50,012 nt of DNA from the NCBI GenBank assembly GCA_018335015.1, contig JAGXKX010000005.1:1-50012 (forward strand), read 5' to 3'. The position numbers and the translations under genes were made by a program. Below are positions 31,413 through 49,846 of the stretch, piece after piece. The notes beneath the pieces were generated by a model that had not been told where the DNA came from, ran no database searches, and saw only the letters and a program-made list of their open reading frames with translations. The stretch comes from Candidatus Bipolaricaulota bacterium (GTDB lineage Bacteria > Bipolaricaulota > Bipolaricaulia > M55B111). Positions within the stretch are counted from its first letter, which is position 1, and each line of letters starts with the position of its first letter.

Positions 31413-32294
31413 TTAACCCTGGAGCAACCTCGCGGCCTTAACCGTATTCGACATTATCAGGGTGGTAGTCATCGGTCCGACTCCTCCCGGAACCGGTGTT
31501 ATCCGGGATGCTTTCTCCTTCACGTTATCGTAATCCACGTCACCGGTTATGCCGCTCTCTGTCTCGTTTATTCCTACGTCCACCACCACGGTCCCTTCAG
31601 AGATCATATCAGCGGTTATAAAGTTCTTTTTACCCACTGAAGAACAAACAATATCCGCTCGCCGGGTCTTTTCTGGCAGATCGCCCGCCTGATATTCGCA
31701 GAGCGAAACCGTCGCATAGCCTTCCCGCAAAGCGAGCAGCGAAAGCGGGAGTCCAACAGCCCCGCCCCCAACGACGAGAAATTCCTTACCGGCAAGATCG
31801 ATATCCGAATACTTCAGTATTTCCATTACCGCGTAAGGGGTCGCCGGCAGCATGACTTCCGGATCATCCTTCAGGTCTTCGTAACTCGCCCTGACAGCTC
31901 CTCCCGAAAGCAACTTTCCGCTATTTGCCGGATTAATGCAGTCCACGTCCTTCTTCGGGTTTATCTCGTCCCTCAATTCTCCGATGTCCAGTCCCTCGGG
32001 TAATGGTAACTCGATAAATAACCCGTGAACGGACGGGTCTCCGTTTAACTCCCTTATCTTACTTACTAAATCTTCATTCGAAATACCCTCTTCTAGCTTG
32101 ACTCCTTTGTAATCTATCCCTAAATCCTCGGCCAGTTTCTTCTTCGTTCGGTAGTAAACCTTTGCTCCCGGATCATTGCCGACGAGAACGGGAGCAATTG
32201 CCGGTTGCACTCCCTCTTCTTTTAGACTTTCTACTTCCTGTTTCAGTTCTTCTCTGTAAGTTTCCGCTATTTGATTACCGTCTATCTTTGACAT
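31413..32294 (-). CDS. folD: Bifunctional methylenetetrahydrofolate dehydrogenase/cyclohydrolase
   Basis: VGNDPGAKVYYRTKKK, TPVPGGVGPMTTTLIMSNT; MSKIDG start after aggaggga. Confidence 0.95.
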   Translation of the reverse strand: MSKIDGNQIAETYREELKQEVESLKEEGVQPAIAPVLVGNDPGAKVYYRTKKKLAEDLGIDYKGVKLEEGISNEDLVSKIRELNGDPSVHGLFIELPLPEGLDIGELRDEINPKKDVDCINPANSGKLLSGGAVRASYEDLKDDPEVMLPATPYAVMEILKYSDIDLAGKEFLVVGGGAVGLPLSLLALREGYATVSLCEYQAGDLPEKTRRADIVCSSVGKKNFITADMISEGTVVVDVGINETESGITGDVDYDNVKEKASRITPVPGGVGPMTTTLIMSNTVKAARLLQG

Positions 32295-32308
32295 TGTCCC
32301 TCCTGGCG

Positions 32309-32878
32309 TCACATGTTGTTTTTCTCACTAATAAGAGTCAGGGCTTCGTCCCTGGCCGCCTTATCCGTCTTGAATTTGCCCCTTATCGCAGAAGTAACCA
32401 TTTTGGAGCCCGGTTTTTTTACTCCCCTTATCGTCATGCATAAGTGCTCCGCTCGTATTTTAACCAGAACTCCATAAGGTTCGATTTTTTCCATTAGAAC
32501 GTCGGCCACCTGAGATGTCAATCTCTCTTGAATATGCGGCCTGCTGGATGCGGTTTCCAGAGCTCGCGCCAGCTTACTCGCACCGACAATTCTGCCGTTT
32601 TTGGGCATGTAAACGATACTTGCTTCACCCATAATCGGAAGCAGGTGGTGCTCGCACAGGGACTGGAATGGTATGTCATCGAGCACCACCATCTCCTTAT
32701 AATCTTCCTGGAAAAACGTCGAAACCTCTTTACCCGGGTCGGTACCTATCCCGGAACAGATCTCTTCCATCATCCGGGCGACTCTCTCCGGAGTCTCTTT
32801 TAACCCGGGCCTGTGGAGGTCTTCTCCTATTCCTTCCAGTATTAATTCTGTTCCCTTGGCTATCTTTTCTCTGTCCAT
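32309..32878 (-). CDS. folE: GTP cyclohydrolase I
   Basis: SLCEHHLLPIMGEASIVYMPKNGRIVGASKLAR, HLCMTIRGVKKPGS. Confidence 0.95.
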   Translation of the reverse strand: MDREKIAKGTELILEGIGEDLHRPGLKETPERVARMMEEICSGIGTDPGKEVSTFFQEDYKEMVVLDDIPFQSLCEHHLLPIMGEASIVYMPKNGRIVGASKLARALETASSRPHIQERLTSQVADVLMEKIEPYGVLVKIRAEHLCMTIRGVKKPGSKMVTSAIRGKFKTDKAARDEALTLISEKNNM

Positions 32879-32899
32879 TTATTCTCCAAGATCTTTATA

Positions 32900-34633
32900 T
32901 TAGAATAAGCCTTCTACGTTGCCTTCTTCGTCAATATCTACGTCTTCGTAAGCGGGTTCGGACGGAAGGCCTGGCATGGTACTCATCTCTCCGCACAACG
33001 GGTAGACGAAACCTGCACCCACGCTAGCTCTAACCTCGCGAACCGGCAGGGTAAAGCCAGTCGGCACGCCCTTCTTCTTCGGGTCGTGCGAGAGTGACAG
33101 GTGGGTCTTCGCCATGCAAATCGGCAGATCGCCAAAGCCAGATTCCTCGTAGTCCTTTATTTGCTTTTCCGCTTTGTTCGCGTATTCGACTCCTTCGGCA
33201 CCGTAGATTTCCGTGGCGATGGTTTCTATCTTCTCTTTGATGGATTTATCCAGGTCGTAGAGGAACTCGAAGTTGGACTCTTCTTCAGTAGCCTGGACAG
33301 TAGCTTCGGCAAGATCGACCGCTCCCTCTCCACCATCGGTGAAGTGGTTTGACTCTACGGCGTCGAACGCGCCCGCTTCCAGCGCCTTTTCCTTTACCAG
33401 TTCTACTTCCTTGTCCGTGTCGGTGTGGAACCTGTTTACGGCAACCACAACCGGCACGCCGAATTTCTGGGCAATTTCTATGTTTTTAGCGAGGTTTTTT
33501 GTGCCTTTTTCGAGTAATTCCAGGTTTTCTTCTTTGTATACCGGGTCAAGTTCCTTACCTGCTACGACTTCAGGACCTCCACCGTGAGTTTTAAGTGCTC
33601 TCACAGTGGCAACGAGTACGACTGCGTCGGGTACGTTGCCGCTGTACCGACATTTGATATTGAAGAACTTCTCCATGCCGATATCAGCACCAAAGCCGGA
33701 TTCCGTAACTACGTAATCGGCAAGCTTTAGCCCAACCATGTCGGCCAGGTTGGAGCTATTGCCGTGAGCTATATTTGCAAACGGGCCGGCGTGGACGAAT
33801 GCTGGTTGGCCTTCCAAGGTCTGGAGCAGGTTGGGCTTTACGGTATCCTTCATAAGTACTGTCGCCGCTCCCGCCGCTCCGAGATCTTCTGCCGTAACCG
33901 GTTCTCCATCCCAGGAATATCCGAGAACGATCTTACCGATTCTCTCTCTGAGGTCATGAAGACCGTCCGTCAGTCCGAGTATCGCCATTAGCTCGGAAGC
34001 GACTGTGATGTCGAAAGCACTTTCTCTGGGGTAACCGTCCCACTTGCCGCCAAGGCCGACGTTTATGTTTCGCAGGGCCCGGTCGTTGAGGTCAACAACT
34101 CTATTCCACGTTATGGAGTATGGATTGATATCCAACTTCTCCTTGCCCTTCTCTTTCCACGCTTCGTCAGAGTAGTTCCGCTCGTGCATCAACCGGGCGT
34201 CTAGCGCTGCCGCTATAAGGTTGTGGGCCGCTCCTATGGCGTGAATATCCCCGGTGAGGTGGAGGTTAAAATCTTCCATCGGGATTACCTGCGAGTAACC
34301 TCCTCCAGCTGCTCCACCCTTGATGCCGAATGTCGGTCCCTGGGAAGGCTGGCGAATTGCAGTCATCACTTTCTTTCCAATCTTCCCCAGAGCCTGGGTT
34401 AGTCCGATATTCGTCGTAGTCTTTCCTTCGCCCAGGGGAGTCGGCTGGATAGCCGTCACGTCGATATATTTGCCATCCGGTTCTTCTTTTCTATCCTCGT
34501 ACGCATCGAGTTTCACTTTTGCCTTGTAGTCGCCGTAAAGTTCTAACTCGTCCCGGCTAAGTCCTACTTTTTTCGCAATTTCTTTTATTGGCTTTAAGTC
34601 AGCCGATTGAGCGATTTCAATATCGCTTTTCAT
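32900..34633 (-). CDS. fhs: Formate--tetrahydrofolate ligase
   Basis: [51 protein letters not shown]. Confidence 0.97.
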
Positions 34634-34731
34634 GAAATATACCTCCTGTTTGAATTAAGAATCGATCAAGATCCTAAATTTTTTTCGGCCTGCTTCCAGA
34701 CTGCCACCACGGGTACCGACATGGAATTCCA

Positions 34732-35517
34732 CTAATTGCCTCTCTTGTATTTAAGGTATTTTAGGCAATTTTTGTCCATGCCCAGAAGAGCCTCGGCAGC
34801 TTTTAGCGTATCCATCATGGGCTTGTCGGTCGGATCGATCAAAGCAGCGTCAAGCCCCGCCTCCAGCAACATAGCAAAAACGGTTCTGTTGATAAGCGCT
34901 CTGTCCGGAAGGCCAAAGGACATATTACTTAACCCGATATTTGTTTTTACACCAAACTTCTCCTTAATTTCCCTGACCGAGTCTATTACGTACCGTCCCT
35001 GTTCCTGATTGCTCCCTATCGTCATGGCTATAACGTCTATATAAAGCCGGTCCTCCTCTATCCCGAGACTGTCGCACTTTTTCAGCAACGCTTCCGTTTC
35101 GTTTAACCTGTCTTCTACCGTCTCGGGCATTCCTTCTTCTCCCATCGCTAAACCGATTATCTCGGCGTCGGAATCGGCCGCTACTTCTCTGGCCCTCGAT
35201 TTGTCTTCTTCGTTACTTATGGAGTTAATTACCGGCCTGTTTTCGACCTTCTCCAGGGCGAACTCCAGCACTTCCGGGTCCGGTGTATCTATACATATTC
35301 TGACGTCGTCGACTTCGTCTTCAACTAGATCGATCAGCCAATCCATGTCAGACTGTTCTTCTTCCATCGATTCCCCGGCATTAAGGTCAATTACGTCCGC
35401 CCCGGTTTCTGCTTGATCCCGAGCTAGCTTTCGAATGAGTTCCTCGTCCTTTTCCTTCAGGGCCTGCTTAACTTCGTCCCTAGTGGAATTGATTAATTCA
35501 CCAATTGTCAAGAACAT
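34732..35517 (-). CDS. Methyltetrahydrofolate:corrinoid methyltransferase (AcsE/MtgA-like)
   Basis: IGELINSTRDEVKQAL, GADVIDLNAGESMEEEQSDMDWLIDLV, LYIDVI, GLSNMSFGLPDRALINRTVFAMLLEAGLDAALIDPTD; colinear with AcsE. Confidence 0.88.
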   Translation of the reverse strand: MFLTIGELINSTRDEVKQALKEKDEELIRKLARDQAETGADVIDLNAGESMEEEQSDMDWLIDLVEDEVDDVRICIDTPDPEVLEFALEKVENRPVINSISNEEDKSRAREVAADSDAEIIGLAMGEEGMPETVEDRLNETEALLKKCDSLGIEEDRLYIDVIAMTIGSNQEQGRYVIDSVREIKEKFGVKTNIGLSNMSFGLPDRALINRTVFAMLLEAGLDAALIDPTDKPMMDTLKAAEALLGMDKNCLKYLKYKRGN

Positions 35518-35632
35518 AGATCTTTACCTCCAGATTTCAGGTTTTTCTTCTCAAGAAGTTTCTTTTTCCTTAACTTCCTAACGTTTAAACTACAACGGCG
35601 AATTATTACTTCATGCAATATGAAATCTCAGC

Positions 35633-37087
35633 TTAATCCCGGTCTTCTTTTCTCCACCTCAAAACGGGTTCGCGGGCGGCTTTTGTCTCATCCAGCCTGC
35701 CCACCGGGGTGGTCTTCGGAGCTTCGTGGAGCAATTCGGGGTCCTCCGAGGCCTCCTCTGCGATACTAAGCATTGCTTCTGCAAATTCATCCAGTGCTTC
35801 TTTGGGCTCCGTTTCAGTTGGTTCAACCATTAACGCCTCTTTAACGATTAACGGGAAGTAGACGGTCGGCGGGTGAAAACCGTAGTCCAGGAGTCTCTTG
35901 GCTATATCCACCGTTTTAATTCCCTCTCCCACCCCGCTCCCGCTGAGCACGAACTCGTGTTTACAGAGTCCTTCGTAGGCAACTCTGTACGCGTTCTTCA
36001 GCTGCTGCTTTAGATAGTTTGCGTTAAGCACGGCGTTCCCGCTAACTTCTCTTAAACCTTCATCCCCCAGGGCTTTAATGTAACTGTAAGCTTTAACCAT
36101 TATTCCAAACGGACCGGAAAAACTATTTACCTTGCCTATAGATCGCGACTTGTCATAAGAGAATTCGTAGCCATCCTCGTTTTTCTCAACAGTCGGCACG
36201 GGCAGGTAAGGTACCAGTTTACGATTAACTCCAACCGGTCCTGCCCCCGGACCACCGCCTCCGTGCGGCGTGCTAAATGTCTTGTGTAAATTGAAGTGAG
36301 TAATATCCATACCGATATCTCCGGGCCGGACCCTGCCCAGGAAAGCGTTGAGGTTAGCCCCATCGAAATAACACAATCCCCCGGCGTCGTGAACGATCTC
36401 CGCTATTTCGGTGATATCCGTTTCAAAAATACCCAGCGTATTGGGAACGGTGAGCATAATTCCCGCCGTAGTATCTCCAGCTGCACTCCTAAGTTGTTCG
36501 AGATCCACAGTCCCTTCTTCATTTGATTCTATCTCCATCGCGTCAAAACCAGCTACCGCCGCCGAAGCCGGGTTTGTACCGTGGGAGGAATCTGGAAGCA
36601 ATATTTCCCTTCTCTGATCCAGTTCACCGTTGTCCTCGTGATACTTTCGAATCATGAGCATACCCGTGAGTTCCCCATGAGCACCAGCCGCCGGTTGAAG
36701 CGCAATACCGGCCATTCCGGAGATACTTTTCAGCATCTCTCCAAGCTCGTACATCAACTCCAGGTTGCCCTGAACCAGGTCTTCCGAGGCCAAGGGATGT
36801 TGATTCTGAAATCGGGAATACTTAGCCAGATCCTCCATAGGCTTAGGGTTGTGCTTCATGGTGCAGGAACCAAGCGGATATAAACCGTCGTCCACGCCGT
36901 AATTCTTTTTCGAGAGTTCAGTGTAGTGCCGAATAAGCTCGGGCTGGCTAACTTCTGGAAGTCCCGGCTCGTCCGACCTCAATAATCTGTCGTCGAGTTC
37001 CTCCTCCGGGGTTACTTCCGCAAAGGTCTCCTCTTTAAAAGAAGTGCCCGTCTTACCTTGCTCGCTTTTATCGAAGATCGTGGTCAT
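35633..37087 (-). CDS. gcvPB: Glycine dehydrogenase (decarboxylating) subunit 2
   Basis: SCTMKHNPK, DSSHGTNPASAA, NLHKTFSTPHGGGGPGAGPVG; start re-assigned to MTTIFDKSEQ. Confidence 0.95.
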   Translation of the reverse strand: MTTIFDKSEQGKTGTSFKEETFAEVTPEEELDDRLLRSDEPGLPEVSQPELIRHYTELSKKNYGVDDGLYPLGSCTMKHNPKPMEDLAKYSRFQNQHPLASEDLVQGNLELMYELGEMLKSISGMAGIALQPAAGAHGELTGMLMIRKYHEDNGELDQRREILLPDSSHGTNPASAAVAGFDAMEIESNEEGTVDLEQLRSAAGDTTAGIMLTVPNTLGIFETDITEIAEIVHDAGGLCYFDGANLNAFLGRVRPGDIGMDITHFNLHKTFSTPHGGGGPGAGPVGVNRKLVPYLPVPTVEKNEDGYEFSYDKSRSIGKVNSFSGPFGIMVKAYSYIKALGDEGLREVSGNAVLNANYLKQQLKNAYRVAYEGLCKHEFVLSGSGVGEGIKTVDIAKRLLDYGFHPPTVYFPLIVKEALMVEPTETEPKEALDEFAEAMLSIAEEASEDPELLHEAPKTTPVGRLDETKAAREPVLRWRKEDRD

Positions 37088-37089
37088 CT

Positions 37090-38433
37090 CTATTCCACCT
37101 CGCCCCTCATCAAATCGACGAAATGATCCAATTCGTCCTTCTTCACCTTTTCCGTAACTGCAACGAGCAGGAGGTCTTCCCACCCCGCCTCTTTCAAGGT
37201 GTCGGGATGAAGAAGATCTACCCCGTTCTGCTTCATCTTCTCCCAGATATCACAGGGGTCACCGGGTACCTTGATCGCAAACTCATTAAAAAACGGCTGG
37301 TTCCAGGCCAGTTCAATCCCGGGCAGATCCGTGAGTTCATCCGCGAGGTAATGTGCTTTGTCCCAGTTAATCTTTGCAAGAGATTTGAGCCCGGAGGGAC
37401 CCAGAGAGGCAAGGTATACGGTAGCCGCTAAGGCATTTAATGCCTGATTCGTACAGATGTTGGACGTAGCTCTTTCCCTCTTTATGTGCTGCTCACGCGT
37501 CTGCAGAGCCATGACGTAACCTCCATTACCCTCTCGATCAACCGTCTTACCGGAAACCCTCCCCGGCAGGTAACGTAAGTAATCCTTCCTGGTAGCAAAA
37601 AGACCCAGTAATGGTCCCCCGAAATTCATTGGATTGCCCAGGGGTTGCCCTTCTCCTACCACTATGTCAGCCCCAAAGTTCCCCGGTGGCTCAAGTAAAC
37701 CGAGAGATATTGGGTTGGAACTCACGATAAGGAACGAATCTTTCAGCTCCTCCTTAAGCCCACTAAGGTCTTCGACAATTCCCATATAATTGGGGGACTG
37801 GACAACCAGCCCAGCAATAGAATCTTCGCTGGCCAGTATTTCCTCTAAATTAATCCTGTCGATCCGACCGTCCCTGGTGCCAAGCTCGATAACCTGATTT
37901 TCTTCCAGAGGCAGGTAAGTTTCGATTACGTCTCTATAGCGAGGATTCAGAGTCTCGCTTACGATAACTTTGTCTTTGCCCAGATACTCCTGAGCCATCA
38001 ATACGGCCTCGGCTGCCGCCGAACCCCCGTCGTACATGGAGGAATTTGCAATATCCATGCCAGTTAATTCAGATATTTCCGTCTGGAACTCGAACATCCA
38101 GGTTAGAGTGCCCTGGCTAATTTCTGCCTGATAGGGGGTATAAGCGGAATAGAATTCAGATCTCCCGGTGACGTGGGAAACTATGGAAGGAATGAAATGA
38201 TCGTAAAGCCCGGCGCCAAGTAGGCTCAATCGGTCGCCAGGCTTTTCGTTACGATCAGCTATCGCTTTGACGGATTCCTTTAATTCAAGCTCCGTCTCTC
38301 CTTGACCGTCTACTAAATCTTGCTCTACCTTCAGGTCATCCGGGATATCGGAAAACAATTCCCTAAGGGAATTGACGCCGATATCCTCGAGCATCTCCCT
38401 CCTGTCGCTGTCCGTATTGGGGATAAAATCCAT
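37090..38433 (-). CDS. gcvPA: Glycine dehydrogenase (decarboxylating) subunit 1
   Basis: FYSAYTPYQAEISQGTLTWMFEFQTEISELTGMDIANSSMYDG; NICTNQALNALAATVYL. Confidence 0.95.
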   Translation of the reverse strand: MDFIPNTDSDRREMLEDIGVNSLRELFSDIPDDLKVEQDLVDGQGETELELKESVKAIADRNEKPGDRLSLLGAGLYDHFIPSIVSHVTGRSEFYSAYTPYQAEISQGTLTWMFEFQTEISELTGMDIANSSMYDGGSAAAEAVLMAQEYLGKDKVIVSETLNPRYRDVIETYLPLEENQVIELGTRDGRIDRINLEEILASEDSIAGLVVQSPNYMGIVEDLSGLKEELKDSFLIVSSNPISLGLLEPPGNFGADIVVGEGQPLGNPMNFGGPLLGLFATRKDYLRYLPGRVSGKTVDREGNGGYVMALQTREQHIKRERATSNICTNQALNALAATVYLASLGPSGLKSLAKINWDKAHYLADELTDLPGIELAWNQPFFNEFAIKVPGDPCDIWEKMKQNGVDLLHPDTLKEAGWEDLLLVAVTEKVKKDELDHFVDLMRGEVE

Positions 38434-38447
38434 GAGGGATCCTGAAG

Positions 38448-39083
38448 TTAACTAGTTAACTTCTTAACAAGCCTGGATGCTGCCGCCGCGTCTGCCGCGT
38501 AACCGTCAGCGCCAATTTCATCCACGAAGTCCTGAGAAACGGGCGCGCCGCCAATGGCTACTTTCACCTGATCCCTGATGCCTTCTTCCTCCAGCGCTTC
38601 AATAACTTCGGGCATGTGAGTCATGGTGGTCGTCAGCAGGGCAGACATTCCAAGCACGTTTGCGTCGTTTTCCTTGACCGCCTCGACAAACTCCTCCGCG
38701 GGCGTTTCTGGACCAAGGTTGATGACCTCAAACCCGGCACCTTCAAGCATCATGCTAACCAGATTCTGGCCGATGTCGTGCAGATCACCTTCGACAGTCC
38801 CCATGACTACGATACCAGCTGGCTCGACACCGGATTCAGCCAGGAGTGGACGCAACAATTGCATGGCTCCTTTCATCGCCTCGGCAGAAAGCAACATCTC
38901 CGGAACGTACCTATCGCCACTTTCGTATTCCTCTCCGACCTCGTCCATTGCTGGAACCAGGCCTTCGTTCAGGATTTTTTCCGGCTCCAGGCCTTCATCT
39001 ATTGCCTTTTCAGTCAACTCCACCGTCTTGTCTTCGTCCATGTCGAACACAGCTTGACCCAATTCTTCAAGTAAGTCGCTCAT
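38448..39083 (-). CDS. Corrinoid (cobalamin-binding) methyl-carrier protein, MttC/MtgC-like
   Basis: GTVEGDLHDIGQNLVSMMLEGAGFEVINLG (DxHxxG cobalamin motif); N-terminal helical cap with EMLLSAEAMKGAMQLLRPLL. Confidence 0.92.
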   Translation of the reverse strand: MSDLLEELGQAVFDMDEDKTVELTEKAIDEGLEPEKILNEGLVPAMDEVGEEYESGDRYVPEMLLSAEAMKGAMQLLRPLLAESGVEPAGIVVMGTVEGDLHDIGQNLVSMMLEGAGFEVINLGPETPAEEFVEAVKENDANVLGMSALLTTTMTHMPEVIEALEEEGIRDQVKVAIGGAPVSQDFVDEIGADGYAADAAAASRLVKKLTS

Positions 39084-39163
39084 TCTAACATAAACCTCCT
39101 CAAGTCTTTTTTACCCTTTGTGAGATCATTATATCCCTTGAAACTGCAGTTACAAGCAAAAAG

Positions 39164-39182
39164 GTGGGATAAATTATCCCAC
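39164..39182. promoter_or_regulatory. Perfect palindrome upstream of the corrinoid gene (operator or small terminator)
   Basis: GTGGGATAA-A-TTATCCCAC, about 80 bp upstream of the corrinoid protein start; followed on the minus strand by CTTTTTG. Confidence 0.45.
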
Positions 39183-39267
39183 AAAAACAACATTTATCTT
39201 TGGCGCTACGGGAATAGTAATACCAGGTCTATAGTTGAAAATACTTCTCAGGTTGAAGGAGGGTAGC

Positions 39268-39381: not shown

Positions 39382-39453
39382 CTAATCTCCCCCTCTTTTA
39401 GAAAGACTAAAAAGTGCCCCCGCTAGTCATCTCTCTAACGTGGCTGGCAAATC

Positions 39454-40350
39454 TCAAAGGGCCTCAATACCTTCAAGCCAATAATTTACCAATTCGGGGT
39501 GGGCACTAACAAACTTAGTCGCCGCATTCCGTTTCCTCTTATCGAATAAGCGGGTCAATTCATTCACCAGGTCTATAGAGAGATGAAAACGGCTTAAGAA
39601 CCGGGTGACCCTATTCGGGTACTTCTCCATCAGATCCTTTCGGGCAAGGAGATTTACAACCTTTTCATCGGTCAGTTCGCTAATAAATCTTGTATTGTAA
39701 AGGCTAAAAGGGACACTTGGACGATTTAGCGTGATTAATAACCACTCTTTGCTCCGAATAGCACGGTTAAGCTCGGAGATTGCGACCATTTCATTTATCT
39801 TCACCAGTTGGTAACTACTTAGTCCTTTTACTGTGTCCATAATTCTACGCGAATTCTCCAGGAGTGAACTCTCCGACTCTATACCAATTATTTCTTTATT
39901 CAAGTTGTTCATGACCTCCGGCTTAGCAAGGTCCTCTGGCGAGTTCAATTTAGTTTTCGGCACGTAATCTGGTACGGCCCAGCCCCCCACTACGTCCTCG
40001 TACACCGGCCCCAGGTTGCATACTTTGCCGGCAAAGTTGTTCCACGTTCTACTTCCCGGTCGAGGAAGTTTCATACCTAGAAATAGGTCAGCCTCACCGT
40101 CCGAAGTCTTTTTCAAACCGACCTGAGCGTATTGTATTTTTTTATTCACATTCCAACCCAATTCTTCTTCTAAAAGGTATGTAATCAACTCAGCTACGGG
40201 CATATATTCCGTTTCCGGAACTACGTAAAAATCTATTGCATCTTCCTTCGCTGTTGCCGTCGGGGGGGATAAAAAAATCGCCACCGTGACGAGGGCCAAA
40301 AAAACGAAGAGGGAAAGAGGTTTCTTGATTAAATCAAGTTGCGAACTCAT
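39454..40350 (-). CDS. Divergent OpuAC/ProX-like substrate-binding protein paralogue
   Basis: Signal peptide ...TATAKEDA; aligns along its length with the neighbouring OpuAC (GPVYEDVVGGWAVPDYVPKTKL vs GPMYEDAKLTWAVPTYVPEDEL) but lacks the pocket Trp motifs. Confidence 0.8.
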   Translation of the reverse strand: MSSQLDLIKKPLSLFVFLALVTVAIFLSPPTATAKEDAIDFYVVPETEYMPVAELITYLLEEELGWNVNKKIQYAQVGLKKTSDGEADLFLGMKLPRPGSRTWNNFAGKVCNLGPVYEDVVGGWAVPDYVPKTKLNSPEDLAKPEVMNNLNKEIIGIESESSLLENSRRIMDTVKGLSSYQLVKINEMVAISELNRAIRSKEWLLITLNRPSVPFSLYNTRFISELTDEKVVNLLARKDLMEKYPNRVTRFLSRFHLSIDLVNELTRLFDKRKRNAATKFVSAHPELVNYWLEGIEAL

Positions 40351-40422
40351 ATATTATTCCTCCTTTTGTGAGGGCCGCGAATTTGGTCCATTACAATCAT
40401 TCGAGTGGTCCTATTAATAAGG

Positions 40423-40492: not shown

Positions 40493-41383
40493 TTATCCCA
40501 GAGCGTCTACTCCGTTGACAAAGAAGTCGATGATTTCAGGGTGTTCCTCTGCAAACTGTGCTCCTGCCCCTTCTCCCATATCGGAGTACATTGCCGACAG
40601 TTCGTTGACCATGCCAATCGGGAGGTAGAAGCGACTAATAAACTCACTCAGCTTGTTCGGGAACACCTCCATGAAGTCCTGCCGGCCGATCATGTGGACC
40701 CTTTCTTCAGAACCTAACAGACCTTTCGGTTCCTCCAGATTCCTGAGATCGAATCGACCGTAAGCGGAATGGGGTTCCCACAGAGTCACAACTATCCACT
40801 CTTCATTCTGTGTCGCATCCTTTAGTGCAGCTTGCATAGCCGCTCCACTTCCTTCTAGTAGATCGTAGTCCGAGAGGGCGTCGTATTCCTCAAGCATCTT
40901 CTCCGACTGCTGCATAATTCCGGCACCCGGATCAATGCCCGTAATTTCCGCGCCCAGCTTTTCCTTCACCGATTCCTTAGCGAGGTCTTCTACTGAAGCC
41001 AGTTCGTCCTCCGGTACGTAAGTAGGTACTGCCCAGGTCAATTTCGCGTCTTCGTACATGGGCCCGAAGTCAATTACCTCAGCACCATATTTCTCCGTGT
41101 AAGCCTGGTGAGTTATGGGCTGCCAGGATTCGATAAGCAGGTCAAGTTCCTGGTCGGATGCTGCCGCATAAGCCACACCGATTGACGGGTTCGTAACCTC
41201 CACGTTCATTCCGAGCTCGGTCCTTACTACGTACTGAATCAGATCCGCAATTCCGAGAGCTTCTTCCCAGGCAACGGCCCCGATGTTAAGGGTTTTGTCC
41301 TGAGCCCTAGCGGGTGTCGAAAGAAAACCAATAGTCAGGGCAAGAGAAAAAACGACTACGAGTGCAAAACGTGCTTTTTTCAA
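40493..41383 (-). CDS. opuAC: Glycine betaine/quaternary-amine ABC transporter substrate-binding protein
   Basis: GAVAWEEALGIADLIQYVV, DLLIESWQPITHQAY, IVVTLWEPHSAYGRFDLRNL; signal peptide ending TPARAQ. Start is likely TTG 41383 after aggagg. Confidence 0.9.
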   Translation of the reverse strand: MKKARFALVVVFSLALTIGFLSTPARAQDKTLNIGAVAWEEALGIADLIQYVVRTELGMNVEVTNPSIGVAYAAASDQELDLLIESWQPITHQAYTEKYGAEVIDFGPMYEDAKLTWAVPTYVPEDELASVEDLAKESVKEKLGAEITGIDPGAGIMQQSEKMLEEYDALSDYDLLEGSGAAMQAALKDATQNEEWIVVTLWEPHSAYGRFDLRNLEEPKGLLGSEERVHMIGRQDFMEVFPNKLSEFISRFYLPIGMVNELSAMYSDMGEGAGAQFAEEHPEIIDFFVNGVDALG

Positions 41384-41521
41384 TGAACCCACCTCCTGAT
41401 AAAAGTGGAAGGAAGTTTAAATTTTTCGACTCTAACAAACTCTTTCTGTAGTTACCATAAAGGCACCGAAATATCTACTCGCCAATATCACCCCCGTCGG
41501 TTAATAATTGAACTTTTTCGA

Positions 41522-42607
41522 TCATTCTTCTCTAGCGCCAATATTTGAAGTCGCTCTATCAAGGATCATCGCAGTAAATACTACTGACAGGCCAGCAACG
41601 AAGCCCTGACCGACACGCATGCGCTGAATCCCCCGAACAACTTCTCCACCCAGGCCTCCGGCTCCAATCAACGCGGCGACTACTGCCATGGAAAGTGCAA
41701 GCATTATACTCTGGTTCACTCCGGCCATTATTGAAGGCCTGGCCACCGGGATCTGGACTTTGAGTAACAACTGCAAGTAATTACAGCCAAATGCTTCCCC
41801 GGCCTCGACGAGTTCCTGAGGCACCTCTCGGATTCCTAGGTTGGTCAGTCTAACCGATGGTGGGTAAGCAAATATTACGGTAGCAACTGCTCCCGGAGCG
41901 GCTCCCAAACCGAAGAATAGTACCGCGGGTATCAGGTAAACAAATACGGGCATAGTCTGCATCAAATCCAGTACAGGCCGAATCATGTTATCTACCGTGT
42001 CCGAAATAGCCGCCAGTATTCCCGAAGGAATACCGAGACTTATCGCGATAAACGCCGACGTTAATGTAAGCGAGAACGTTTCCGTAGTCTCCACGTATAA
42101 ACCGAAGTTAGCGGCCAACCATAATGTAATGAACCCGAGGAGACCGGTAGTAATTTGTCCGGACAGATACCAAAGCAGGAAGAAAAGGATCAATGACCAA
42201 AGAGGAAACCTTATATCAAGCCCGGCAACGGTAACCACGAAGATAGGGATCCATTGAATAGCCGCCAAAATTGCCTCGTTTATCGTATTTAGAACAAGTT
42301 GAATGAAATCGAATAACGGGGAAATGTTTAGGTTCAACCAATCCACTACGGCAACCGTCCACTCGTCAAGCGGGATGGGTGCAGGCTTTGCCGGTAACTC
42401 AATTAAGGGTGTTCCTACCCTGGCGGAGACCGTAAGCGGATACAAAAATACCCAACCTAACGTACCTAATACCAGGCCAAAAACCTTCTCTATGGAACTA
42501 TTAAACTTACTCATTGCGCCTCCATATTCCATACTTTTATTCAAAAAACCCTTTAAACTTTTTCCTGGCATTTTAACTATCCTCTTCATCTCGTCCCCTA
42601 AATTCAT
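41522..42607 (-). CDS. opuAB: Glycine betaine/proline ABC transporter permease
   Basis: [52 protein letters not shown]..., [35 protein letters not shown]-type EAA loop and TMs. Confidence 0.93.
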   Translation of the reverse strand: [361 protein letters not shown]

Positions 42608-43782
42608 GACGAAGAACCCTGCCTACCCTTTTCGAGAAGACCCTGAAGGATATTTTTCTCCCCCACGAACCCAATGAACTCATTATTTTTTAGAACGACA
42701 ACCGGGTGTGAAGTATAGGCTAACCTGGCTTTCATTATTTCACTAATTGGTGTTTCCGGAGAAGAAAACAGGAGAGCATCCTCTTCTATCCGCTCGTACT
42801 CGTCAATTGGTCTCAAGGAGACCGGCGCGCCTGATATATACCCTTTTACGACCTCTCCCTCGTCGTTGACTTCAACCTCCGTAAGCTGGTCCAGCTTTAC
42901 CCTGTTCTCTTCATCGACCCGGAAATCCTTTTCCGCAACTGTTTCGGCCCGTAGAACGTCCGAAGGGTCAGCGTTTTCTACGAAATCAGCTACGTATTCA
43001 GTCTTTGGATTAACGATGATCTCCTCCGGCACGCCTTTCTGGACCATTTTCCCGCCGTCCATTATCGTGATCCTATCTCCGACTTTAAGTGCCTCGTCAA
43101 GGTCATGGGTTACAAAAAGGATGGTCCGCTGCATGTTCTCCATCAAATCGAGCAATTCGTCCTGCATTTCCACCTTGATTAACGGGTCAAGTGCCGAAAA
43201 AGGCTCGTCCATTAATAGAACCTCGGCCCCAGTGGCCAGTCCCCGGGCTAGACCAACTCTCTGCTGCATCCCCCCTGAGAGTTGAGAAGGGTAGGAATCG
43301 CCAAACCCTTCAAGCCCGACGACCTCAATGAGTTCTTGTGATTTCCTTTCTCTTTCTTCCTTGCTTATGCCCTGAATTTCGAGCCCAAACCCCACATTGT
43401 CCAGAACCGTCCTGTGAGGGAATAGTGCAAAATTCTGAAAGACCATGCTGACCTGAGTTTCCCTGATCTCTCTCAATTCCTCTTTCTCAGCGGAAGTGAT
43501 GTCGTAATCTTTTCCATCGGAATGTAACGTTATACGGCCCTTCGTTGGCTCTACTAACCTATTTACGCACCTTAACAGGGTGGACTTGCCCGAACCGGAA
43601 AGCCCCATTATGACAAACAACTCGTTGTTCTTTATTTTGAATGTTATGTCCTGGACACCAATAACATGGCCAGTTTCTTCTCGGACTTCGGTTTTACTAG
43701 CACCTTTATCAATCAACTCAAGCGCCTCTTCCGGTTCGTCACCGAAAATTTTGTAGACACCCTCTAACTCAATTGAAGGCAT
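42604..43782 (-). CDS. opuAA: Glycine betaine ABC transporter ATP-binding protein with CBS-type C-terminus
   Basis: MGLSGSGKSTLLRCVNRLVEPTKG, LSGGMQQRVGLARGLATGAEVLLMDEPFSALDPLIK; ATG 43782 after gggagga; overlaps opuAB by ATGA. Confidence 0.95.
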   Translation of the reverse strand: MPSIELEGVYKIFGDEPEEALELIDKGASKTEVREETGHVIGVQDITFKIKNNELFVIMGLSGSGKSTLLRCVNRLVEPTKGRITLHSDGKDYDITSAEKEELREIRETQVSMVFQNFALFPHRTVLDNVGFGLEIQGISKEERERKSQELIEVVGLEGFGDSYPSQLSGGMQQRVGLARGLATGAEVLLMDEPFSALDPLIKVEMQDELLDLMENMQRTILFVTHDLDEALKVGDRITIMDGGKMVQKGVPEEIIVNPKTEYVADFVENADPSDVLRAETVAEKDFRVDEENRVKLDQLTEVEVNDEGEVVKGYISGAPVSLRPIDEYERIEEDALLFSSPETPISEIMKARLAYTSHPVVVLKNNEFIGFVGEKNILQGLLEKGRQGSSS

Positions 43783-43880
43783 TTTTTCCTCCCGCAAGAG
43801 TTAATCTTTACGTCTGTTTGTTTAATTATAAATAGTACCGGAAAAAAACCAAATTTCGCCAAAAATAACCGATTTAACTT

Positions 43881-43896
43881 TACATTGAAAAATGTA
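43881..43896. promoter_or_regulatory. Inverted repeat upstream of opuAA
   Basis: TACATT-GAAA-AATGTA, about 100 bp upstream of opuAA. Confidence 0.35.
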
Positions 43897-43974
43897 GTTT
43901 AAAATTGCTTATTAAACTTTCCTCAAGCTAACTATAGCTGACCTACCAGTTAATACTTGAAGTTATTGTAAAGA

Positions 43975-44002
43975 GCGAGGGGAATCAGTGGATTCCCCTC
44001 GC
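43975..44002 (-). terminator. Hairpin terminator downstream of the mttB pair
   Basis: GCGAGGGGAATC-AGTG-GATTCCCCTCGC, 12-bp perfect arms. Confidence 0.8.
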
Positions 44003-44012
44003 AGTTAAGTCT

Positions 44013-45461
44013 CTACAGTCTATCAATTACGGTCTCTATCTTTTCTTTGACTTCTTCAGAGAGCGGCTTCGGCTCGTGTTCTTCCAGTATTTCCTGAACT
44101 TTCTCCCGGAGTCTCTCTTCCATGGATTTCGACCCTTTATCCATCCAGGTATCGGGGACGTCCCTATCCATCAAGGTAGGATGCCAGGCCACTTCTTTGA
44201 AGTTATCCATGGTATGCTCGTGCGTCAGGTGATCTCCTTCGGGCCCGACTTCGTCTATGACGTCTAGAGCCAGAGTGTAATCGTTGACCTCGATCCCGTC
44301 GGTGAATTTCTTGATCATTCCCACTATTTCGTCCACCATGGCAATTTGTTCCAGAGAACCAGTGGAAGCGGACTCCATGTAACCTACATCGTGGACGAGA
44401 TTTGCTCCACTCAGGGCCGAATACAGAACCGAAAGTGTAGATTCGATACCCGATTGCTGGTCAACTATTTTCGAATCAGTACAACCGGCGGTGCCCCAGG
44501 TGGGAAGCTCGTAGTAATGGGCTATGTCCATATAGGCCGCCGTGGCTAGTTCTTTTTCTGGAGCTCCGTAGGCAAGGACCGCGGTCTGCATATCCATTAT
44601 CGAAATAACTCCACCGACAAAGAACGGCAAGCCCTCGTTCTTAAGCTGGGAAACTACCAATGCGGAAAGGTTTTCTGCGTTGCCCTGGGCTAGTTGGCCG
44701 GCCAGCGTGACCGGGGCACTCGCTCCAGCCTGCGGTATGGGTGTGTGAACTGTGGGCAACCCGTACTCAGCCGTAAGAAGCAATTTCCTGGAGGCGTCCT
44801 TGTCGTGAGTGAGGGGTGAAATGGGCTCAGAGTAGGATACGATAAACGGCTTGTGCAACAATTCTTCTTTGCTACCCGCCACTGCCGAAGCCATTTCGAT
44901 TATATCTTCCACGCCTTCGTTGGTATAACTCCATACCACAATCGGTTTCGTGGTATTCTTTATCATGGCTTCAAATTCGTGTCTATCCGAGTGTTCGTGA
45001 GGTACGTCGTCTATCGTGCCCAGTCCCATAACCCAGTCGATGTTGTCCAGAGCATCCACCAGTTTTGCGGCATCGGCCGTATCCTTTTTCCTAAAAGGTC
45101 TCCGCTCGCCCGTCTCCGTGTCCCGCATGTTTAACAGAGTGGGTCCGAGACCGAAGGTCACGTTGTTACCTCCAAGAGTAATGGGATTCTTACCTTCTCT
45201 ATCGTACAGGTAAGTCTGAGCAGGTGCCGCGTCAATTGCCCACTCCACGAGTCCGGGAGGAAAATATACCCTATCACCTTTAACTCTACAGCCTGCTTCA
45301 TCCAATAGGTCTCGGGTCTCTTTGAGGTGAAAATTGACCCCGGTTTCCTGAAGAATTTCCAGCGAAGCTTCGTGTATGTCCCTGATCTGCGATTCCGATA
45401 GCACCTCAAAACCTACCTTATCTTGGGACGATTTGTTGGCAAATAGTTGATTTTCTAACAT
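44013..45461 (-). CDS. Trimethylamine methyltransferase (MttB/COG5598) family protein, non-pyrrolysine; candidate betaine:corrinoid methyltransferase, copy 1
   Basis: 482 aa uninterrupted; IHEASLEILQETGVNFH, PIPQAGASAPVTLAGQLAQGNAENLSALV, GTAGCTDSKIVDQQSGIE. Confidence 0.88.
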   Translation of the reverse strand: MLENQLFANKSSQDKVGFEVLSESQIRDIHEASLEILQETGVNFHLKETRDLLDEAGCRVKGDRVYFPPGLVEWAIDAAPAQTYLYDREGKNPITLGGNNVTFGLGPTLLNMRDTETGERRPFRKKDTADAAKLVDALDNIDWVMGLGTIDDVPHEHSDRHEFEAMIKNTTKPIVVWSYTNEGVEDIIEMASAVAGSKEELLHKPFIVSYSEPISPLTHDKDASRKLLLTAEYGLPTVHTPIPQAGASAPVTLAGQLAQGNAENLSALVVSQLKNEGLPFFVGGVISIMDMQTAVLAYGAPEKELATAAYMDIAHYYELPTWGTAGCTDSKIVDQQSGIESTLSVLYSALSGANLVHDVGYMESASTGSLEQIAMVDEIVGMIKKFTDGIEVNDYTLALDVIDEVGPEGDHLTHEHTMDNFKEVAWHPTLMDRDVPDTWMDKGSKSMEERLREKVQEILEEHEPKPLSEEVKEKIETVIDRL

Positions 45462-45470
45462 TTTTCCTCC

Positions 45471-46928
45471 TTAATACTTTACATCTCGTTTTTCTCTTTC
45501 TTCCTCAATTATCTCATCCAGTTTTTCCTGTGTACCCTCGGCGAGAACGTCGGCCTCGTAACTCTCCAGAATCTTGTCCCTCTTCTCGCTAACCCTATCT
45601 CCCATAGACTTCTCCCCGTTCTTCTTCCAGTTGTCGTAGTTAGTCCGGTCCATGAGAGATGGCTGCCAGTGCTCCTCCTTAAAGTTGTCCATTGTATGAG
45701 AAGTGTTCAGGAAGTTGCCTTTCGGACCGACTTCGTTTATCAGGCCGAGAGGGATATTGTCGCCGGAAGTGTCGATACCTTCCATAATTCTCTTTACCAT
45801 ACCTATTATTTCATTGCTCATCACCAGCTGGTCGTAGGAATAGAGAAGGCCTGAAGCCAGATAACCCACGTCGTGGATAAGATTTGCTCCCACCATGGAC
45901 TGGGTCGCGATATTGAAGGTAGCTTCAATAGCCGCCTGAGTATCTACCAGCTTGGAATCCGTTACACCCGCCGTACCGAACATCGGTAGGTCCAGGAAAT
46001 TACTCATTTCAGCCACGGCACCGTTCATAAGGGCAAACTCCGGACCGCCGTAGACGAACCCGGAAGTCTTCATGTCCAGGATGGAATAGATACCGCCCGT
46101 TATCATCGGCGCACCCTCGTTTACCAGTTGAGCCAGGGTTATCCCGGTGAGCGATTCGGCAATACCCAGCGCAATAGAGCCAGCAAAAGTCATTGGACTG
46201 ACCGCACCGGCTGAGGGCATAGGGGTGTAAATTGTGGGCAGGTTGTGTTTAGCGCCGAATATCGTCTGAGCCATAACTTCCTTGCTGTGGCTCAGCGGAG
46301 TAACCGGCTCTATGTAATGCATTATATAGGGCTTAGACTTAAGTTTTTCTTCTCCGCCCACGGCAATCGACGCCATGTTAAATATGTCCTCCGTGCCTCT
46401 TTCATCCCAGGAACAGAACATGACGGGTTTTGATGTATTCGCCATTACCTGCCGCGCTTCCAGTATGTCCTGGACGTTTTCTTTCTCCTTCCTCAATAAA
46501 CCAATAGGAGAAGAAAAGTCAATATTATCGAGAGCGTCGCAGACTCTGGCCCACTTTTCAATATCTTCCGCTACGGTCTGCCTGATTTCTCCTTCTTCAT
46601 CAAGTGTTCTTGGAACATCAGTTCCCGAGCCAAAATAAGAATTTGTTCCACCCAGCCTCATGGCCATATCTCCATGCCTGTCGTAAATTAGCACCTTTTT
46701 TGGAGCCTTCTCGACCGCGTCGTTAACCATATGAGGTGGGAGATAAACCATGTCATCCTCTACTCTGGCTCCCGCGCCGGCAAATATGGACCTTGCCTCT
46801 TCGTGATCTACTTTTACTCCAGTATTCTGGAGTATCTCCAGAGAGGCATCGTAAATTTGCTCCTTATCATCCTCGGAAAGTATGTTGAACCGAGGAGTTC
46901 TGTTTACAAATTTATTTGACTGTAACAT
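45471..46928 (-). CDS. Trimethylamine methyltransferase (MttB/COG5598) family protein, non-pyrrolysine, copy 2
   Basis: IYDASLEILQNTGVKVDHEEA, TPMPSAGAVSPMTFAGSIALGIAESLTGI, GTAGVTDSKLVDTQAAIE; start re-assigned to MLQSNKF after ggaggttt. Confidence 0.88.
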   Translation of the reverse strand: MLQSNKFVNRTPRFNILSEDDKEQIYDASLEILQNTGVKVDHEEARSIFAGAGARVEDDMVYLPPHMVNDAVEKAPKKVLIYDRHGDMAMRLGGTNSYFGSGTDVPRTLDEEGEIRQTVAEDIEKWARVCDALDNIDFSSPIGLLRKEKENVQDILEARQVMANTSKPVMFCSWDERGTEDIFNMASIAVGGEEKLKSKPYIMHYIEPVTPLSHSKEVMAQTIFGAKHNLPTIYTPMPSAGAVSPMTFAGSIALGIAESLTGITLAQLVNEGAPMITGGIYSILDMKTSGFVYGGPEFALMNGAVAEMSNFLDLPMFGTAGVTDSKLVDTQAAIEATFNIATQSMVGANLIHDVGYLASGLLYSYDQLVMSNEIIGMVKRIMEGIDTSGDNIPLGLINEVGPKGNFLNTSHTMDNFKEEHWQPSLMDRTNYDNWKKNGEKSMGDRVSEKRDKILESYEADVLAEGTQEKLDEIIEEEREKRDVKY

Positions 46929-47094
46929 ATAAACCTCCAGAACTTTTTTTATTAAACCAATATACATTCAATATACTAACATGAGGCAAAAAAAATCGCA
47001 AATACCTTCTTTTAGTTCTCGTATTCCCACTGTTTGGCTTTATTTAATCTTCACAGCTAAACGATAAATCCGTCTCGCGGACCACCCCCGCTTT

Positions 47095-47736
47095 TCAAAT
47101 GGTCTCGTCTCTATTTCCGGCACTGATAAATTGATTCTTAATTTCGTCTATGAAATCTTCCATGTGAGATGCCAGTATTCGCCCGCTTCTCTTTTCGTCA
47201 CCAGCCGAAAGAGCCTCAATCAATTCGGAAAATTCTTCTGCAAACGTTCCCATAAACTTCTTCGTCCTGGGAAAGACCCATATCCTTACTGACTGCTGTC
47301 TGAGCTTTCGTAGGTTCTCGACAAGGACGGCGTTTCTCGTAGATTCGTTTACCAGTTCATGTGCCCGGGAGTCGAGTTTCATAAGCTTTTTAGGATCCTT
47401 CTCCGCCTTCATCTCGTCCACAAGTTCCCTCAATTCTTCAAGTTTCCCTTCATTGATCCGCCTGGCAGCAAGCTTTCCCGCCAGGCTGATGAGATAGCTC
47501 CGGACTTCAAACAGATCCCGAAGTTCGTGAAAACTTACTGTAGAAACGTAAGTGCCACTGTGGGGAACAGTTGTGATCAATCCCTCGCTTTCCAGTTTTA
47601 TAAAGATTTCTCTCAGGGGAGTTCTACCTATGTCAAACTCCTCCCGGAGTTCTTTTTCCCGTAGCTGTTTTCCGGGTTCATAATCCAGATAGACTATTCT
47701 CTCTTTTATTATTTCTAGTACCTTATCTCTTTCCAT
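47095..47736 (-). CDS. GntR family transcriptional regulator (FCD type)
   Basis: Winged HTH KQLREKELREEFDIGRTPLREIFIKLESEGLITTVPHSGTYVS, then FCD-like helical domain (LRDLFEVRSYLISLAGKLAARR). Confidence 0.93.
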   Translation of the reverse strand: MERDKVLEIIKERIVYLDYEPGKQLREKELREEFDIGRTPLREIFIKLESEGLITTVPHSGTYVSTVSFHELRDLFEVRSYLISLAGKLAARRINEGKLEELRELVDEMKAEKDPKKLMKLDSRAHELVNESTRNAVLVENLRKLRQQSVRIWVFPRTKKFMGTFAEEFSELIEALSAGDEKRSGRILASHMEDFIDEIKNQFISAGNRDETI

Positions 47737-47932
47737 TATTGCAGCCGCCCTCTAGTTAAATTTTTAAATACATCCTGCAGATAATTCGCTGGAAACGACA
47801 CTAACCTATCCAAAATTATATTTTCAGCTAAAATTTAGCTCATATCTAATTAGCAATATTTCGATCTAATACTACCAATATATAATCTTCAAGAATATTA
47901 TATGGTCTGATCGCAGTTAGTCAACTTACCCT

Positions 47933-49846
47933 TCAATTCAAACTAGGAGTACCGACCGCGGTTACGTGGACCTTTCCTCTTCCGTGGTTGAACGGATCTT
48001 TGCTGACGTGAAGGTTTATATCCTCTCCTCCCGACTCTCGAACCAGATTACTGGCGCTTCTTTTCCCCAGCCTTACGGCCTCATCCATCGCCACTTCCTC
48101 GTCCTCCACCTCGATCGTCTTCCTGTTATCCGGAAGAAATACCAAGAACTCTTCCGTCTCCGGCTTTTCTACAACCAGAACATCAATTCTTCTCGATACG
48201 CGTCCAGTTACCGCACCAACGGCGTTGCCTACTTCGAAGTTTTCTACCTCCAGAAAATCTGCTCCCAGGTTCTCGGCCACCCGGGGAAGAAATACACCCG
48301 CAGGAGCCCCCACTCCGATAACGGGGTAGTCCAACTCGAACTTCACGGACATACCTTTAGTCCCTTCGTCCTTACAGTAGTACCACAGAGAGTTGCCCTC
48401 GAACTCACAGCCAGGCTTCTCTTCCAGGATAAATTTTTTCACTACTTCGTAGGAAATTTCTTTCTCGAACGACTCCTTTACCTGGGAGGCAAACCGAGCA
48501 GGTTCCTGTCCCCTTTCCCGGGCCAGTACGTCAGTACCAATCCTCGGTGCCTCCCTGCTCCCGGCCGTATACTCTCCAATTACATGGAGCAGGTCTGTCG
48601 GAGTTAAAGCCACCCTGCGAACTAAACCCAGCCTTTCCAGCTTTCGCAAGTAGTAATTGCCCCGAATCAGACCTTCTTCCCGGGCAATATCCATAAGCCT
48701 ACTCCTATTCATCATTTCGTCGCCGATCAATTTATAAAACTTAACTTCCGAGTCCGTTAGCTGGCTCAAATCTTCACCGACCCCTTTTCTCTTCTCGACG
48801 AACGAGGCATCTTCATAGAGGTCCACTTTATCCAGTAGCTCTTCGGATAAATCTCCAAAAGCCAGCGGCATTGCTGTCCGTGGACCAAATACCAGGTTAC
48901 CTTCTTTATCCAGTTCAATCTGACTATCCCCACCAAGACCATTGCTCCGGAGGTCCATCGACCGAACCTTGGTTCTCCACTTTCCAACCGAAACACCAGA
49001 ATTAGCCAGTGTGGGTAAGCCGTTCCTCAGTACCGCGACGTCCACCGTGGTCCCTCCAATATCTATCACCACACCGTCGTCCTTATTCGACAGCCATCGG
49101 GCACCTATCGCGCTCGCCGCGGGTCCGGAAAATACGGTTTCTATCGGCTTTTTCTTGACCTCCCCGGATTTAGCTAGCGTCCCGTCACTTTTTACGACCA
49201 ATAGGGGGGCATGGATTCCCCTCTCCCTCAGAGCCGACTTTGCGCTATCGATAAACGAATTAATTATCGGCACTACTTTTACGTTCAGCACTGCGGTAAC
49301 CGCCCTCTCGTAGAATCCGAGTTGTGGGGAAAGGTCGTGCCCGGTAATTATGGGCCTGCTGGTTTTTTCCTCAATTATCTTCCGGACCCGATTTTCGTGA
49401 GTCGGGTTTCTAACCCCAAAATACCCCGAGACGGCAAATCCGACCACCTGATCCTTCCACTCTTCAACGAGAGTAGCTGCTCTTTCCTCGTCTAAAGGTT
49501 CGAGTTCCTCACCCCGAGGATTGAACCTGCCCGGAACGTAACCTCGCCTGGATCTGGGAAACTCCTGGTTCTCACTCGGTTTCCAGCCCAGGGTTAAAAG
49601 GCCCACAGGACCTCCCCTGCCCTCGACAATGGAATTAGTGGCGAGTGTCGAGGAAAGAGAAACCTGAATTACGTTATCGGGATCAATTTTTCCAATAACT
49701 TCGTCTATCGCTTCGAATATTCCCCGGGATAGATCGTCGTGCGTGGTCCGGACTTTGGTCACTTCTTCAATTCGCTCCTCTTCCTGATCGAATAGAACGG
49801 CATCGGTAAAGGTATCCCCGGCGTCGACGCCCACGGCGTAATCCAT
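47933..49846 (-). CDS. HyuA-like hydantoinase/oxoprolinase family ASKHA ATPase with internal wHTH-like segment
   Basis: MDYAVGVDAGDTFTDAVLF, SSTLATNSIVEGRG, VVIDIGGTTVDVAVLRNG phosphate motifs; ATG after ggaggtaata. Confidence 0.85.
   Translation of the reverse strand: MDYAVGVDAGDTFTDAVLFDQEEERIEEVTKVRTTHDDLSRGIFEAIDEVIGKIDPDNVIQVSLSSTLATNSIVEGRGGPVGLLTLGWKPSENQEFPRSRRGYVPGRFNPRGEELEPLDEERAATLVEEWKDQVVGFAVSGYFGVRNPTHENRVRKIIEEKTSRPIITGHDLSPQLGFYERAVTAVLNVKVVPIINSFIDSAKSALRERGIHAPLLVVKSDGTLAKSGEVKKKPIETVFSGPAASAIGARWLSNKDDGVVIDIGGTTVDVAVLRNGLPTLANSGVSVGKWRTKVRSMDLRSNGLGGDSQIELDKEGNLVFGPRTAMPLAFGDLSEELLDKVDLYEDASFVEKRKGVGEDLSQLTDSEVKFYKLIGDEMMNRSRLMDIAREEGLIRGNYYLRKLERLGLVRRVALTPTDLLHVIGEYTAGSREAPRIGTDVLARERGQEPARFASQVKESFEKEISYEVVKKFILEEKPGCEFEGNSLWYYCKDEGTKGMSVKFELDYPVIGVGAPAGVFLPRVAENLGADFLEVENFEVGNAVGAVTGRVSRRIDVLVVEKPETEEFLVFLPDNRKTIEVEDEEVAMDEAVRLGKRSASNLVRESGGEDINLHVSKDPFNHGRGKVHVTAVGTPSLN

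Follow-up and report, generated by a model that had tools for sequence, protein, structure and literature searches.

An MttB-corrinoid-tetrahydrofolate gene island conserved in halophilic Candidatus Bipolaricaulota, with a probable role in demethylation of betaine-class compounds

We analysed a 50,012-nucleotide contig of a Candidatus Bipolaricaulota bacterium (JAGXKX010000005.1, hereafter the window), which carries a gene island that combines two methyltransferases of the MttB superfamily (MttB-A and MttB-B), an OpuA-type ATP-binding cassette (ABC) importer, a corrinoid protein (MtgC) and enzymes of tetrahydrofolate (THF) one-carbon metabolism. The gene layout is genuine, recurs among relatives and fits anaerobic methylotrophy that feeds the Wood-Ljungdahl pathway. 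From the sequence, we favour with a probability of roughly 0.68 a route in which OpuA import feeds an MttB-MtgC-MtgA demethylation hub, followed by oxidation of the methyl group or its use by acetyl-CoA synthase/carbon monoxide dehydrogenase (ACS/CODH); we infer the substrates, direction and physiology of this route from the genes present.

The window is one whole contig (C95) of a 152-contig genome of 1.96 Mb, coded G000, that is 86.7% complete, so absences inside the window carry little weight. The host is a halophilic member of Ca. Bipolaricaulota belonging to the KB1/Acetothermia group. The nearest named relatives of MttB-A come from Candidatus Bipolaricaulota metagenome-assembled genomes (MAGs) labelled GSL, which we take as Great Salt Lake, and the island proteins are acidic (D+E to K+R ratio 1.60), fitting the expectation for a salt-adapted cell.

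All the genes named by an earlier sequence-only reading were found on the minus strand between positions 31413 and 49846, with strong hidden Markov model support (Table 1), and its description of a pyrrolysine-free MttB/corrinoid/MtgA module next to a betaine-class ABC importer and a THF one-carbon branch holds. Both MttB proteins score above the PF06253 cut-off and have no in-frame stop, with C (MttB-A) or V (MttB-B) at the pyrrolysine position, and are thus non-pyrrolysine members of the superfamily. Together with a corrinoid protein bearing the DxHxxG motif (DLHDIG at residue 100) and a THF methyltransferase, these methyltransferases I (MTI) make up a three-component corrinoid methyltransferase system. 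MtgC_2 is the best NCBIfam model for the corrinoid protein, although its score lies under the cut-off of 370 set for that exception model; the island's MtgA is 37.5% identical to the genome's own AcsE, encoded on contig C72. Two OpuAC-type binding proteins, SBP1 and SBP2, accompany the importer. Tryptophans W42, W90 and W205 of SBP1, and the PH following the third, align with the Lactococcus OpuA binding domain, so that the tryptophan cage of OpuA/ProU betaine importers is present in SBP1 and absent from SBP2. SBP2 is itself a conserved betaine-type binding protein, and the three tryptophans are also lost in its three aligned orthologs.

The arrangement recurs among relatives. The complete island, from HyuA through FolD, is found in identical gene order in genomes G042 (locus L010) and G043. 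Parts of it were recovered from G041 (HyuA-OpuAB on one contig and MtgC-MtgA on another), G045 (GntR through the two binding proteins, plus MtgC-GcvPA) and G044 (binding protein through FolD, up to the contig end). This repetition places the arrangement beyond chance. In a survey of the phylum, direct orthologs of MttB-A were restricted to the window's own family (79-88% identity, plus one 67% copy), with matches elsewhere at ≤45%. Orthologs of the GntR/FCD regulator (77-93%) occupy the same position in the relatives' islands. The module is present outside the phylum too, since a Victivallales MAG (L011) encodes, alongside an MttB pair, a further MttB, MtgA, MtgC and a corrinoid activase of the RACo type.

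A single corrinoid protein appears to stand at the centre of this metabolism. In a profile search, the island's MtgC was the sole PF02607 protein of G000, and all six family genomes compared hold one methyltransferase-type corrinoid protein each, against 4-11 MttB genes per genome (seven in G000). These genomes are 70-87% complete, and the agreement of six makes it unlikely that the single copy is a general artefact of incompleteness. A second PF02607 match in G045 is unlikely to be a corrinoid protein of the methyltransferase type, being 25% identical to MtgC over 134 amino acids with a stop that breaks the frame. By analogy, MtgC-MtgA-Fhs-FolD are best read as a shared hub that would serve all seven MttBs of G000. 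In Eubacterium limosum, MtpB, MtcB and MtyB share MtqC, MtqA and RamQ (PMC8604678), a comparable case in which several MttBs depend on a common corrinoid protein and a common THF methyltransferase, the latter encoded among genes for methyl-THF oxidation. Here, by contrast, the corrinoid protein sits with the THF genes while the activase lies elsewhere, and the sharing is predicted.

The gaps that the sequence-only reading saw in its route are confined to the window: none of metF, ACS/CODH or an activase lies within it, yet all three are encoded elsewhere in G000. Two MetF-type proteins are encoded on contigs C58 and C69, the former near a gene for a NiFeSe-type hydrogenase large subunit (L019:7758-10871), and C72 holds an intact-looking operon, acsB-acsC-AcsV-(280-aa gene)-acsD-AcsE-CooS. 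With FolD and Fhs, the methyl and carbonyl branches of the Wood-Ljungdahl pathway (MetF, FolD, Fhs, AcsB/C/D/E and CooS) are all present. Two RACo-type activases are encoded outside the window, an AcsV-like protein on C72 and a 618-aa protein on C5 with ferredoxin, linker, middle and ASKHA domains. The C5 protein is 41% and 38% identical to the RACos beside the MttB-MtgC modules of G086 and the Victivallales MAG, respectively, and 35% identical to the C72 AcsV. For glycine, GcvPA/PB fit glycine cleavage together with a GcvT on C109 and the GcvH of the window, beside which no other lipoyl H protein was found in G000. This GcvT is full-length and forms the C-terminal part of a fusion (L028:496-3723, minus strand) that also comprises serine hydroxymethyltransferase and a degenerate GcvT-like stretch; the fusion runs for at least 1,075 aa without stops and is cut by the contig edge. 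A search of G000 for GrdB-type proteins (PF07355) gave no match, but the control genomes gave none either.

Table 1. Island genes and the partner GcvH, with window coordinates and supporting models.
Feature	Coordinates	Strand	Support
HyuA-like (hydantoinase/oxoprolinase-type) ATPase, 637 aa	47933..49846	-	PF05378/PF01968
GntR/FCD transcriptional regulator, probable local regulator	47095..47736	-	PF00392/PF07729
MttB-B, non-pyrrolysine MttB-superfamily methyltransferase, 485 aa	45471..46928	-	PF06253 E 3e-109
MttB-A, second non-pyrrolysine MttB-superfamily methyltransferase, 482 aa	44013..45461	-	PF06253 E 1e-103
OpuAA/ProV-type ATPase, betaine-class ABC importer	42604..43797	-	TIGR01186 340.6 bits, above cut-off
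OpuAB/ProW-type permease	41522..42607	-	TIGR03416 289 bits (cut-off 363, below); PF00528
SBP1, OpuAC-type binding protein	40493..41392	-	PF04069 2e-54
SBP2, OpuAC-type paralog	39454..40350	-	PF04069 2.2e-25
MtgC-like corrinoid protein, 211 aa	38448..39083	-	NF047996 (MtgC_2) 220.9 bits
GcvPA, glycine dehydrogenase subunit 1	37090..38433	-	NF001696 557 bits, above cut-off
GcvPB, glycine dehydrogenase subunit 2	35633..37087	-	NF003346 740 bits, above cut-off
MtgA/AcsE-like methylcorrinoid:THF methyltransferase	34732..35517	-	NF005719 (PRK07535) 266.6 bits, above cut-off
Fhs, formate--THF ligase	32900..34633	-	NF010031 803.6 bits, above cut-off; PF01268
FolE, GTP cyclohydrolase I (pterin supply)	32309..32878	-	TIGR00063 207.6 bits, above cut-off
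FolD, methylene-THF dehydrogenase/cyclohydrolase	31413..32312	-	PF00763/PF02882 above cut-off
GcvH, GcvPA/PB partner	15745..16125	-	PF01597 1.5e-42

Both MttBs had been proposed as MtgB-like betaine methyltransferases, and phylogeny against the reference enzyme DhMtgB (PDB 2QNE, 9YCE) did not bear this out. In a 55-row tree, DhMtgB, the Sinorhizobium meliloti 4YYC protein and an MttB encoded on contig C125 of G000 form one clade (support 100/100), while both window MttBs fall in a separate clade of 35 rows (support 100/100). Although they share with DhMtgB the superfamily and the lack of pyrrolysine, MttB-A and MttB-B are only 32% and 30% identical to it, compared with 49.6% for the C125 protein. 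Five betaine-site residues are predicted for DhMtgB (Y94, N199, R309, H345 and F/Y353; PMC6855144), by docking rather than from a ligand-bound structure. At these positions MttB-A has P/E/W/H/A and MttB-B T/E/F/H/G, so that each keeps H345 alone and lacks the other four, whereas the C125 protein (Y/N/R/H/Y) keeps all five. In the clade of the window MttBs, the position of Asn199 is occupied by Glu in 34 of 35 rows, and Asp follows His345 in every one. Judged by clade and residues, the island's MttBs are probably not classic glycine-betaine enzymes; a stronger MtgB candidate in this genome is the C125 gene. It encodes 472 aa and is isolated in its region (L023:9282-12187), where genes for threonine synthase and homoserine dehydrogenase lie on one side, a divergent metK lies on the other and a betaine importer is absent. 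This result weakens the identification of the pair as MtgBs, not the proposal that the island demethylates betaine-like compounds. The betaine reading is supported for the demethylation module, the importer and the steps found elsewhere in the genome, and is not supported for the MtgB identity of the window pair.

What we observed directly is the gene set and its conserved order, the one corrinoid protein, the steps encoded outside the window, and the differences in clade and residues; the route that we propose around these observations would run as follows. A betaine-class osmolyte would be imported by OpuA with SBP1. The two non-pyrrolysine MttBs would move a methyl group from a methylated ammonium compound onto the cell's single MtgC, from which MtgA would pass it to THF; MtgC would be reactivated by the C5 RACo-type activase. 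Methyl-THF could then be oxidized by MetF, FolD and Fhs, yielding formate, ATP and reductant, or be joined to CO by the C72 ACS/CODH in an acetogen-like manner. Should demethylation be complete, glycine would be cleaved by GcvPA/PB, which would work together with GcvH and the fused GcvT. Conversion of glycine betaine to dimethylglycine would most likely fall to the C125 MtgB-type enzyme, and the island pair may act on glycine betaine, on a closely related compound or on the product of that step.

Several points weigh against this route. The sequence leaves the MttB substrate unfixed, and in a MAG that is 87% complete a second corrinoid protein may have been missed. Gene spacing also suggests several transcripts rather than a single operon. 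Short gaps or overlaps join MttB-B/MttB-A (9 bp), OpuAA-OpuAB (4-bp overlap), MtgC-GcvPA (14 bp), GcvPA-GcvPB (2 bp), Fhs-FolE (21 bp) and FolE-FolD (-4 bp), but longer gaps of 370 bp (SBP2-MtgC), 215 bp (MttB-A-OpuAA) and ~166 bp (GntR-MttB-B) intervene. The last of these uses a corrected start; on the basis of Shine-Dalgarno-like upstream sequence and ortholog lengths of 485 and 484 aa, the likeliest start positions are 46928 for MttB-B and 37087 for GcvPB. Promoter and terminator scans of the island gave no excess over shuffled sequence; stems of 12 pairs after SBP1 (40450-40423) and of 8 pairs with a T tail ahead of MtgC (39182-39164) were seen.

Other MttB loci occur in the genome and its relatives. 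Contig C96 (L022:2838-12880) encodes another MttB pair with a GntR regulator and an importer of the Opu type; a GlnA-like enzyme and an iron alcohol dehydrogenase accompany them, and the substrate may be choline or an amino alcohol. G044 (L065), G043 (L067) and G045 (L068) likewise have MttB pairs accompanied by Opu importers; L065 carries a proline racemase-family gene and the other two a same-sized gene in the same place, which suggests proline betaine-type substrates. In a distant relative, G080 (L070:6842-15142), MtgA, proline racemase-like, MttB, MtmB-family, corrinoid and molybdopterin oxidoreductase genes form one run. Contig C147 of G000 encodes a sarcosine-oxidase-like trio (L095:5250-8597) comprising Fer2_4/Pyr_redox_2 (471 aa), ferredoxin-like (166 aa) and SoxB-like (427 aa) proteins, with an M24/creatinase-like gene adjoining. 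Homologs of this trio (41-51%) lie inside a second G042 island (L064/L009), between an Opu importer and an MttB pair, and that island also carries an aldehyde ferredoxin oxidoreductase. The combination suggests oxidative demethylation to formaldehyde in the lineage, a route that would answer in part the published puzzle of the fate of dimethylglycine in KB1.

At the upstream end of the window's island, the C-terminal half of the HyuA-like protein has no named domain, and an AlphaFold2 model built with four orthologs was unusable (mean pLDDT 42.7). Beyond G000, full-length orthologs (59-85%) were found only in three genomes of its family, in each case beside the GntR-MttB pair, and the remaining matches in the phylum reach only residues ~4-325. 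It is possible that this ATPase helps the MttB/corrinoid module. A role as the corrinoid activase is not favoured because RACo-type activases exist in G000.

The closest published cluster type is 'architecture B' for glycine betaine, described from strain DCMF, Sporomusa ovata and Ca. Frackibacter (PMC9768040). In DCMF, this cluster encodes corrinoid proteins of 210 aa, MttBs of 485, 488 and 471 aa, a hydantoinase-like protein of 668 aa and an MtgA of 265 aa, and is strongly raised on glycine betaine (PMC9768040). Compared by content and sizes, the likeness comprises two ~485-aa MttBs, a ~210-aa corrinoid protein, a ~265-aa MtgA and a hydantoinase-like protein; the G000 counterparts are MttBs of 485, 482 and 472 aa, HyuA of 637 aa and MtgC of 211 aa. 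The Bipolaricaulota island differs in having an ABC importer in place of the BCCT carrier of DCMF and one corrinoid protein instead of two, in including gcvP, fhs, folD and folE, and in that the MtgB (471-472 aa type) is unlinked.

This likeness bears on what the island pair demethylates. The match to the DCMF cluster, whose 485- and 488-aa enzymes were so labelled by its authors (PMC9768040), argues that MttB-A and/or MttB-B are glycine betaine methyltransferases, that is, functional MtgBs of a second clade, as do the adjoining betaine-class importer and a corrinoid protein whose best models are MtgC. We regard this as a tentative possibility with the odds somewhat against it, given the position of both proteins outside the DhMtgB clade, the retention of only one of five docking-predicted residues and the existence of a better MtgB on C125.

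If that C125 enzyme takes glycine betaine, the pair could instead use another quaternary amine imported by OpuA, such as choline, proline betaine or carnitine. MttB paralogs within one genome are known to differ in substrate and yet use a common corrinoid protein (PMC8604678), and the pocket residues are unlike those of MtgB. However, the island lacks a substrate-conversion gene (dehydrogenase, kinase or racemase), unlike C96 or the proline racemase-like clusters, and SBP1 looks betaine-type, which leaves this alternative doubtful.

We consider it unlikely that the pair acts as a pyrrolysine-free tertiary-amine methyltransferase, possibly aided by HyuA, on dimethylglycine, the product of MtgB. 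The Glu that replaces Asn199 could hold a protonated amine, and an MtgB on another contig could supply the substrate; yet no non-pyrrolysine MttB is known to act on a tertiary amine, the C147 trio could handle dimethylglycine oxidatively, and the same Glu in the MttB clusters with proline racemase-like genes (L065, L067 and L068) may just mark other quaternary amines. DCMF provides a parallel in that it grows on betaine and dimethylglycine, with the second-step enzyme not known (PMC8163858, PMC9768040), but not on trimethylamine (PMC8163858), and for its cluster of three MTIs and a hydantoinase two substrates were suggested by the authors (PMC9768040). The fuller scheme is about as unlikely: here the pair, possibly with HyuA, would take over from MtgB, betaine would lose its methyl groups one by one down to sarcosine or glycine, and the island's glycine cleavage genes would consume the remainder. 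A purely biosynthetic role, with the importer serving an osmolyte and the methyl module supplying methyl-THF and one-carbon units without energy metabolism, would suit the salt-adapted acidic proteins and the FolE and GcvP genes that suggest a general one-carbon locus, but is improbable because Fhs-FolD beside MtgC/MtgA, ACS/CODH and 4-11 MttBs per family genome exceed biosynthetic need.

Our favoured demethylation route extends an earlier model. For the KB1 group, Nigro et al. (2016) put forward that betaine is taken up and demethylated by MttB-type enzymes, with the methyl groups entering the Wood-Ljungdahl pathway, from a single-cell genome of the Orca Basin that was 25% complete; a ProU importer, MttB-type methyltransferases, THF and Wood-Ljungdahl genes and a glycine decarboxylase were noted (PMC4993014). 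The overall idea is thus already published for this group; a hub of this kind has been described from E. limosum, and the type of cluster from DCMF and Sporomusa. New here are the separation of MtgB from the island MttBs, the single corrinoid hub with an activase candidate, the location of the missing steps, the comparison of gene order across relatives and a specific candidate, open to experiment, for the demethylation of dimethylglycine.

Among the osmolytes of brines glycine betaine is a major one, and bacteria of the KB1 group are proposed to consume it. Our analysis provides concrete candidates for most steps of such consumption within one genome, with the MtgB-type gene separate from the conserved island, and allows the question of which enzyme demethylates dimethylglycine anaerobically to be posed with two expressible enzymes and one corrinoid protein.

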